This document shows positions 3,501 to 30,800 of a stretch of DNA of 64,000 nucleotides, one piece after another (the first letter of the stretch is position 1; every line of letters begins with the position of its first letter). The DNA comes from Zeus faber. Its lineage: Eukaryota > Chordata > Actinopteri > Zeiformes > Zeidae. Where the stretch lies: positions 8,868,497 to 8,932,496 of the forward strand of contig OY482855.1 in assembly GCA_960531495.1 (NCBI GenBank). The letters are read 5' to 3'. The notes beneath the pieces are model-generated. The model was not told the origin of the DNA and did not search any database. It saw only the letters and a list, made by a program, of their open reading frames with translations. Made by a program: the position numbers and the translations under genes.

Positions 3501-3860
3501 GACCGCACAATAAAATAAATATATTTTATGCTTGTTTGGGGTGGTGGGGACGCCACCAGACCAGACACTGTTCTGTCTCAACGGACTTTCTACTTATACC
3601 AGGTCGAACAAAGTCCTTAGATGGAGCTTCAAAGTTACTCTAGCGTACACATTGGCTACCTTTAGGTTATTTTAACCTGTGTGTGTGTGTGTGTGTGTGT
3701 GTGTGTGTGTGTGTGTGTGTGTGAGAGAGAGAGACGCACTGAGGTCCAGGACGTCGTCGGTCTTGATGAGGTCTTCTGGTCGGGTCAGAGGGAGTTGGAT
3801 CTCCGGCTCTCCCTGGAGCTGCAGGGACAACGACCGCAACATGAAGAACACCCTGATGGC
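509..3860 (-). CDS. clec16a: clec16a exons 18-20, partial gene end
   Basis: Exon 18 (3860-3740) gives [19 protein letters not shown] then [11 protein letters not shown]. Exon 19 (1252-1101) gives [35 protein letters not shown] and [13 protein letters not shown]. Exon 20 (713-509) gives [34 protein letters not shown] and MKMQRIA before a GTGGGT donor. These are residues 686-844, the conserved region before the variable C-terminal tail. Exon 20 ends in phase 1 and the rest of the gene lies left of the window; bases 1-508 are intron with no feature I can support. Confidence 0.95.
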
Positions 3861-27800: not shown

Positions 27801-30800
27801 CATTTTTTATTATTTTATATGGTACTATGGTATCATTCCAAAATAAATTACAATCATTGTAAATTTCTTTTAATAATAATAAATGGCCGCCTCTTCTCAC
27901 TCTGATTCACTAGACGTCCTCCTTCCCTCACCGTGCATTAAACAACTGAATCACATCGAAACGACTTGTTTAACTGAGTGACTCATCAAGAACCGAATCT
28001 CAAAAAAGAGTCGAACCTTTCATCATGAGCGAAGCTCATGCACTGGGAACGACCAGAGTGGACGCTCCGCTGTAATGACAGCGATAGATACACAGTCTGC
28101 ACAAAATTAGAATATTGTCAGGCGATTGATAAATAATTTATCGAATCTTCTTTGTTTACCTTGAAGTACCTCCAAACAGCAACAGACATTTTCTTTCTTT
28201 CTCTCTTTTTTTTTTTGTGCATCAACCCAGAATCTCGTTATATTAGTTTGGTCTCGGGTTTGAGTGCTGGAGCAGCGTGTAAATTTGACTGGCACAGAAT
28301 CAGATATATCTGACACTGATCGGGCGGTCACTGGTCAAGGTCGATCGAGCTGAAAACCGTCCGATTCTGATGACGGGCCGATCGATTGGTGCATCTCACG
28401 TTTTACATGTTATCATTCCGGTCACATTTTTGTGCTTGATTATCACTCCCCCACTTCCTATTACCTCAGCAATGCAGCGTTACGGCTCGTGGACAATAAA
28501 GTAGCACACCGCTCAGTGGGCTGCGTATCATTGGATGGTGAGAGAGGAGACGGAGGGGAGGTGAACCAGAACCACAAGCACAGGTCCAATCAGAGGGATG
28601 TAGTTTAAATACCCAATAAATGTACACTATTGTTTTGTATGGATTGATTTCCGTAGTTAAATTACAATAATATATATAGTTTTTTTTGGCGTAGTTTCAG
28701 CTGGTATTTCGTACCTAGAATTGCGTGGTTGGTACACAAAGTGGGTGCAAGTTGGCAGGTCTGGGCTTTCACCTGTGATGGTAACACGGCAGTAGGTGAT
28801 GTCACGTGATTGACTAATCTTCTAAATTTCATATAAATTCACTGGGTCACTGCTGCATTTATTGTACAATATTTAAAGCCATAATTGCAGTTAATATTAG
28901 TGTATGTATGTTTTGAAGGCTGTTATAGTATGCATGTGTGTGTAATTTACGTGTGTGTGTCCATGTGTGTTAAGAGCTGTCATTTTAGAATGTGTGTGTG
29001 TGTGTGTGTGTGTGTGTGTGTGTGTGTGTGTGTGTGTGTGTGTGTGTGTGTGTGTGTGTGGGCCAAACTTGTTCGAGGGGTTACCTGTTGAGTCGTGCTC
29101 ATGCAGCAGAAGCGGCAGAATAAGAAATGAAGAACAAGGAGACCAACGCAACAACAACAAAAAAGGACAGGACAGCACAGAGTGAAGGTGCAGGACGTCC
29201 CGCCGTCCTCACTTTGAGTGTGTGTGTGTGTGTGTGTGTGTGTGTGTGTGTGTGTAAACTGCGCCCGCACCCGTGTGACTCACCTTTGTAGACATTGAGC
29301 GTGATCGTGCGGACGGCGATGCGCACCATGCTTTCCGGGTGGTTGAAAAACTTAATGGCCTCCGTGTACAGGGCAAAGTCATTAGTGTGCTGTGTGTGGG
29401 AGACAGAGAGGGGGCGCCGGTGAGCGGGGGGGGTGCACGCAGAGAGAGAGAGAGGGAGAGAGAGAGAGAGAGAGAGAGAGAGAGAGAGACCTGCGATCTA
29501 TGCACGTATAGTAGGGAAAGGACTTCCGATGGCCAATATGACGTTTCTCTGTTTGTTATTAAATAAATCACACCACAATGAGCACAATGACTCATTGATG
29601 ATAGTTTGTTCAGACCCCTAATGGGATCTCGAAGTAAAATCGAATCATTTACTGTCACCTGGGCACACAAACGTTTTATTTCCGCCAGGTGCATGTAAGT
29701 GCGATTGAACAGCGGCATTAGACTTAAATGTCAACTTTAGCCTCACAAAGAAACACCAGAATCTCTAACACTGTTTACTCGCAGCGTGATCCATAAATAT
29801 GAACGCAATACATTGAACTTTGCCAGAAACATTTAATTTTAAAGATCGACTCCCACAGCCACTGGGCACATCCCTAAAAATCTGCATTGAGGATGGTTAT
29901 CGTACATCAGCCGTTGCCTTGCTGTGCCTCAGTGAATGCTTCATCTCTCCCTCTCTCTCCGTCTTTCCCACTGTAGGGTGTGCGTGGGCCCGCCCGCAAA
30001 GCACCCAGAGATGCCTTCCCGTCTTCCTCACTCGCTGAGACCTCTAGCCAATCACAGACGTGTGATAAGAGAGACATCCAGAGGTCACAGAGAATGAGGA
30101 AAAACTTGCAATATCCAACCCAGATACCAAAACCAGGCCCAGAAGGGTGTCAAGGGAATCTGTCAACAAGAGGTGGGGAAGGTGAATGTCTATCCCCGTG
30201 GCATATACAGTAGACACTTTGAAATAGAGGGGCCACAGTTCTGCAGTTCTTCTTAAACACCTAGGGGTCGGGTTTTGAGACTCTGGGGGGGTGGGGGGGG
30301 GTGAAAGCACTGAGCTTCCATCCACAGTACACCAATAACTTTCCCCCAAACACACGGCCAATGGAAGCGCTACGTTCTACTGTGGGAAAATCAGTGGTTA
30401 ACAACAACAGCGTCAAGATGAGAAAGATTAGATGAGAAACCAATATACTTCTTTCGTTAAATCTTGGGACAATGTGACTGGACTCGAATTATGATTAGCC
30501 AAGACTAAAGTAAGAGAATTGGATAAGTGGTCGATGAGCCCCTTGGTGTAAATACCTTCCACAATCTATTGAAACAGGACCGTGTTTGGAGCTAAATGAC
30601 CCCCACCTCTCGGCCTCCCTCACCTCGTTGTAGAAGAAGTGCACCGTGTGGTTGTTGAGCTTGAGTGACAGTGTCTTGAGGAAGGAGATGTAGTAGGCCA
30701 TAATCTCCTCGTCTGAGAAGTCGAACTTGTGGACGATGATGGAGTTGACGTGGTTGTTGGAGAGCAGGTAGTCTGGTGCAGGTTGGGAGAGAATGAGGAA

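Follow-up and report, generated by a model that had tools for sequence, protein, structure and literature searches.

CA/GT microsatellites at splice sites of clec16a in Zeus faber, including an adenosine-free UG array before exon 14

Introduction

In the (AC)m-(GU)n introns of zebrafish, an AC repeat near the donor pairs with a GU repeat near the acceptor, and U2AF is described as unnecessary (PMC9024468, PMC9198270). In humans, roughly 20,000 UG tracts of at least 12 repeats are reported in a preprint to be mostly intronic and near splice sites; the same source gives a KD of 5 pM or less for TDP-43 on (GU)12 and describes a pUG quadruplex that competes with TDP-43 (PMC12697283). A second preprint, on human fine-mapped splice-associated STRs, reports that enrichment peaks in the 100 bp before the affected exon (odds ratio of 25.9 in the strict set), discusses a bias of such STRs toward T-rich units, and associates skipping of SH3YL1 exon 9 with an AC repeat (PMC13174678). 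At the acceptor of CFTR exon 9, a UG tract of variable length is bound by TDP-43 (PMC12171016; cited in PMC13174678).

Here these systems are compared with clec16a of Zeus faber, as contained in a window of 64,000 nucleotides, the whole stretch of DNA that was analysed. The clec16a arrays resemble those of the zebrafish introns in their sense orientation, with CA near donors and UG near acceptors in six of eight arrays. However, the zebrafish introns carry both arrays in the same intron, an arrangement found in 0 of 18 clec16a introns, and clec16a therefore falls outside that class as described. With 14 units at acceptor 9 and about 65 at acceptor 14, two of the UG arrays reach the minimum of 12 repeats used for the human pUG tracts (PMC12697283), which belong to another species, whereas here several arrays lie in one gene. 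As at CFTR exon 9, a UG repeat occupies the 3' splice-site region at acceptors 9 and 14, and an effect of its length on inclusion of the exon is plausible. In CFTR, poly-U lies between the UG repeat and the AG; in contrast, no poly-U follows the arrays at acceptors 9 and 14, which leave only 3 and 2 to 7 nt to the exon, and the exon 14 array is longer than the CFTR tract. At four clec16a donors, CA lies just past the donor, as in eNOS, where an intronic CA repeat downstream of a donor is reportedly bound by hnRNP L.

Results

Exons 2 to 19 of clec16a were mapped on the minus strand of the window (1101..35784). All 18 mapped exons have GT/AG intron ends, and when joined they form a single stop-free frame of 751 amino acids with Pfam matches to CLEC16A_C (E = 3.3e-298) and FPL (E = 9.8e-58). 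Exon numbers are those of an earlier sequence-only reading, and the map and all counts cover exons 2 to 19 with 18 introns (32,817 nt), which leaves out exon 1 and intron 1 at one end and, at the other, all that follows the first base of exon 20 (713), placed from its acceptor alone. Exon lengths bore out what that reading had said of the frame. Exons 9 (17732..17848, minus strand; 117 nt), 15 (45 nt) and 17 (129 nt) are in frame, and skipping of exon 11 (11555..11666, minus strand; 112 nt), exon 14 (9601..9710, minus strand; 110 nt) or exon 18 (121 nt) would shift it. Exon 5, on which no comment had been made, is 106 nt long, also no multiple of three.

Several other repeats and elements were observed within the gene and the window. 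Introns 14 and 15 contain pieces of a dispersed repeat (4961-5139, 6442-6777 and 9312-9481) that are pairwise 92 to 98% identical, the first of which stops 50 nt from a UG array at 5189-5209. Intron 7 holds a degenerate minisatellite (19004-19843) with CCCTATAGTAT-like units of about 11, 18, 40 and 142 nt, and a DDE_3 transposase-like stretch, detected by Pfam, lies on the minus strand within intron 5 (21779-22435). A 47-nt copy of part of exon 14, 94% identical, is found within intron 9 (14356-14402), and a long TCTA array occupies 42651-43084.

CA/GT arrays had been claimed to lie on or within 30 nt of seven named clec16a splice sites, and all seven were located there, at distances of 0 to 28 nt; all lie on the minus strand. 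On the donor side, CA arrays were found 28 nt into intron 5 (29218..29255, 19 units), 2 nt into intron 11 (11512..11552, 41 nt, with two identical donor cores around it), 8 nt into intron 17 (4263..4325) and 16 nt into intron 18 (3678..3723, 23 units), and an imperfect UG array of 33 nt (6298..6330) starts with the donor GU that follows exon 15 (0 nt). On the acceptor side, a UG array of 14 units (17852..17879) stops 3 nt before exon 9 and fills the 3' splice-site tract. A second UG array, of about 65 units (9713..9848; 131 nt perfect and 136 nt as a whole), precedes exon 14, from which its perfect part is separated by 7 nt and the whole array by 2 nt. The earlier reading had missed an imperfect UG array on the same strand, 4 nt into intron 3 (34941..34984), as well as a 14-nt UG run, 14 nt into intron 10, that appears at a lower threshold. 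An AC repeat lies within 30 nt of the 5' donor in 4 of the 18 introns (5, 11, 17 and 18), and a GU repeat within 30 nt of the 3' acceptor in 2 of the 18 (8 and 13).

The placement of these arrays at clec16a splice sites is real and non-random against simple nulls. Six of the 14 perfect arrays (at least 8 units) lie within 30 nt of a clec16a splice site. With arrays placed uniformly over the 18 introns, 0.49 would be expected, and six were reached in 0 of 200,000 permutations; with each array placed within its own intron, the expectation is 1.28 (P = 1.4e-4). For imperfect arrays (score of at least 16), the count was 8 of 16, against expectations of 0.56 and 1.34 for uniform and same-intron placement (0 of 200,000 permutations and P = 5e-6, respectively). 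The 30-nt cutoff was taken from the sequence-only reading, where it had been picked after looking at the sequence; cutoffs of 10, 20, 50 and 100 nt gave the same picture of enrichment, weaker at 100 nt. Both nulls place arrays uniformly and independently and contain no genome-wide bias of arrays toward splice sites. The part of the window outside introns 2 to 19 holds four more arrays with a score of at least 16; it makes a poor local baseline, being a count of arrays and not of splice sites. Three of these four were examined. One adjoins a putative acceptor of dexi, one is near no recognised exon, and another stops 487 nt before an exon taken by eye for that of a mitochondrial carrier, the scan having covered just a piece next to it. 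For comparison, dinucleotide repeats account for 5.7% of the assembly of Atlantic cod (PMC5241972).

The orientation of the arrays, described earlier as nearly systematic with UG at acceptors and CA at donors, held in part. Six of eight arrays agree with it, but this corresponds to a one-sided binomial P of 0.14, and even in the original set of arrays (6 of 7) P was 0.06, so that a nearly systematic orientation is not established. The exceptions are UG arrays at donors 3 and 15 and, at the lower threshold, donor 10. A Fisher test of array orientation at donors versus acceptors was not significant (P = 0.43). When whole introns were considered, all six CA arrays with a score of at least 16 lay in the 5' half of their intron, and the ten UG arrays were divided five and five (Fisher P = 0.09). 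On the plus strand, a CT array and, after it, a CA array (37512-37604) lead into a CGCAG; the start codon of dexi, a gene identified by its Pfam match Dexa_ind, comes about 40 nt later. If the CAG of this CGCAG is an acceptor, then a CA array lies at a putative dexi acceptor, contrary to the orientation rule.

Among the 18 acceptors examined, that of exon 14 stands out as exceptional. No adenosine occurs in the 137 nt upstream of its AG. Apart from that of the AG, the nearest intronic adenosine lies at -140 from the exon, inside a branch-point-like CTGAC (9849..9853, minus strand; A at 9850) just upstream of the UG array. The AG-free stretch measures 144 nt at this acceptor versus 17 to 99 nt at the other 17 acceptors examined, and the UG array is the sole tract at the 3' splice site. 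A low pyrimidine content alone does not distinguish the acceptors with UG arrays (fractions of 0.52 at acceptor 9 and 0.48 at acceptor 14 in the 21 nt examined), because the array-free acceptors 13 (0.43), 16 (0.38) and 17 (0.52) are similarly pyrimidine-poor. Since no other pyrimidine tract is found at exons 9 and 14, the UG array itself would serve as the 3' splice-site tract of both, bound by UG-binding or UG-tolerating factors.

As the 137 nt are free of adenosine, array length sets the minimum branch-point spacing of exon 14, barring a non-adenosine branch point. An adenosine branch point could then lie no closer to the exon than 140 nt, each repeat gained or lost would alter this spacing by 2 nt, and the CTGAC with its A at 9850 is the candidate for the branch point that is used. 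In humans, the spacing between branch point and 3' splice site is given as 29.3 +/- 11.9 nt, and wider spacing has been shown to weaken splicing in fission yeast (PMC9508853). If the fission yeast result carries over by analogy, splicing at exon 14 may weaken as the array lengthens, and inclusion of the exon would likely vary with array length. Binding of TDP-43, or formation of a competing pUG quadruplex, could alter the effective spacing. The tract folded no better than its shuffles (z = 1.56) in the standard model, which is blind to the pUG quadruplex. Among the clec16a arrays, exon 14 is the best functional case.

The alternative that survives best is purely mutational: short runs at splice sites would act as seeds, slippage would extend them and the resulting arrays would be tolerated, their length having no effect on splicing. 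Arrays would then come to lie at splice sites through slippage, with no need of selection for a regulatory role. In the 50 nt upstream of the array-free acceptors (n = 16), 25 TGTG/GTGT tetramers were counted, where array-free intron interiors would predict 9.1 (bootstrap P = 0.003). This enrichment of seeds is, however, also predicted by a functional UG tract. CA tetramers were not enriched at the same acceptors (6 against 8.9 expected). At the array-free donors (n = 12), both CACA/ACAC (14 against 6.6 expected) and TGTG/GTGT (14 against 6.8 expected) were somewhat more frequent than expected, each at P = 0.06.

Donor strength bears on the same question. Arrays as markers of weak donors were considered and rejected: by computed pairing with the 5' end of U1, the six donors with arrays were not weaker than the 12 without (Mann-Whitney P = 0.55), a result that also accords with the mutational account. 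The weakest of all 18 donors is donor 18, at -1.4 kcal/mol. With no overall weakness in the donors that carry arrays, there is little reason to see the CA arrays as rescuing weak sites. For the donor arrays, the mutational account is about as good as a functional one. At exon 14, by contrast, seeds alone leave splicing over 137 adenosine-free nt unexplained. As an explanation of the arrays as a whole, we consider the mutational account possible, though on the doubtful side.

At exon 11, the donor region is duplicated around the CA array. A 21-nt donor core at the end of the exon (11547..11567, minus strand; donor G at 11554) has an identical second copy in the intron (11473..11493, minus strand; possible alternative donor G at 11480). 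The two are spaced 74 nt apart with the CA array between them, are the only exact copies in the window, and have equal computed U1 duplex energies. Splicing from the second donor would lengthen the exon by 74 nt, with a change of frame; when the CA array was shortened by one unit in silico, the addition became 72 nt, or 24 residues in frame. Human CLEC16A is described as having an alternative 5' donor at exon 11 (PMC9670805). The gene is the same, and the possible alternative donor here also belongs to an exon that bears the number 11, a likeness in numbering; the human case differs in that no repeat figures in the part of the description available, and the SNP studied there left minigene splicing unchanged (PMC9670805).

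A broader reading would make two arrays length dials in one transcript, with the exon 14 array, as almost all of the spacer from branch point to AG, setting both inclusion and frame, and the frame at exon 11 following repeat number modulo three. A sequence reason for length dependence is concrete at exon 14 and possible at exon 11, and nothing particular suggests one at donors 5, 15 and 17. Taken as a whole, this reading is improbable.

Arrays might also bracket groups of exons, with pairing across the exons favouring back-splicing into circular RNA or joint skipping. For circular RNA, the arms would be the UG array before exon 9 with the CA array after exon 11, and the UG array before exon 14 with the CA array after exon 17 or 18; for joint skipping, the CA array of intron 5 with the UG array of intron 8 (exons 6 to 8), and the CA array of intron 11 with the UG array of intron 13 (exons 12 and 13). 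Back-splicing is described as promoted chiefly by reverse-complementary matches between flanking introns (PMC8938519), the orientation of the arrays fits, and the computed duplexes are very stable, at -55.5 kcal/mol for the UG array of intron 8 with the CA array of intron 11, -127.2 kcal/mol for that of intron 13 with the CA array of intron 17, and -81.8 kcal/mol for the CA array of intron 11 with the UG array of intron 13. These energies are not specific, however, because any CA and UG arrays pair strongly. About 1.7 to 11 kb separate the arms, and the duplexes would face competition from TDP-43 and hnRNP L. No paper was retrieved by a literature search that combined circular RNA, dinucleotide repeats, flanking introns and fish. 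We hold bracketing to be quite unlikely.

A zebrafish-type arrangement, in which the ends of an intron pair through complementary arrays and U2AF is unnecessary, was examined by computed pairing and folding. For the six introns whose array has the orientation of that class, end-to-end duplexes were compared with 60 single-letter shuffles of the 3' end per intron, which gave z values of -1.94, -0.31, -0.53, +4.35, -0.72 and +0.38 for introns 5, 8, 11, 13, 17 and 18; in intron 5, pairing of the two ends is thus slightly stronger than in its shuffled controls. Three of the 18 introns (8, 11 and 17) were folded whole, and z was unremarkable for introns 8 (1.00) and 11 (-0.67). Intron 17 reached -4.08, and in its minimum-energy fold about 10 nt of the donor end pair with the acceptor side, but the array is not part of its largest stem, which is an internal palindrome, and the donor-acceptor pairing disappears in the centroid structure. 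The palindrome lies at about 4080-4129 on the minus strand and forms a hairpin of about 18 bp. Although six of the eight splice-site arrays share the sense orientation of the zebrafish class, and although introns 5 and 17 came closest to it in these results, bridging of this kind was rejected as very improbable, as none of the 18 introns has CA and UG arrays at its opposite ends.

Discussion

The reading that we favour, with somewhat better than even confidence, is that ordinary CA/GT microsatellites have clustered at the splice sites of a vertebrate clec16a gene, following a tendency known from the introns of fish and humans, that the UG arrays at acceptors act as splice tracts, with inclusion of exon 14 dependent on array length, and that the CA arrays at donors are passengers. 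The donor arrays are probably tolerated, or may be mild sites for hnRNP L. Throughout, effects of the arrays on splicing, and the binding of any protein to them, are predictions from the sequence and its comparison with the systems described above.

The earlier reading had proposed that UG and CA arrays act through binding proteins and in a manner that depends on length. As a general idea this is in print for humans (PMC13174678, PMC12697283), and given these precedents the proposed mechanism is an application of known ideas to clec16a. A search of the literature for clec16a, fish, microsatellites and splicing returned nothing on the topic by title among the matches listed. With the orientation rule not established, the interesting core of the locus is exon 14, and the duplicated donor of exon 11 is a curiosity.

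Apart from exon 14, the arrays of clec16a illustrate a known tendency well, and they are a reminder that regulation by splice-site arrays should be claimed only once a genome-wide baseline has been set. The acceptor of exon 14 offers a clean natural test of the branch-point distance that can be tolerated when a GU repeat alone fills the gap, and of whether repeat length governs inclusion of the exon.
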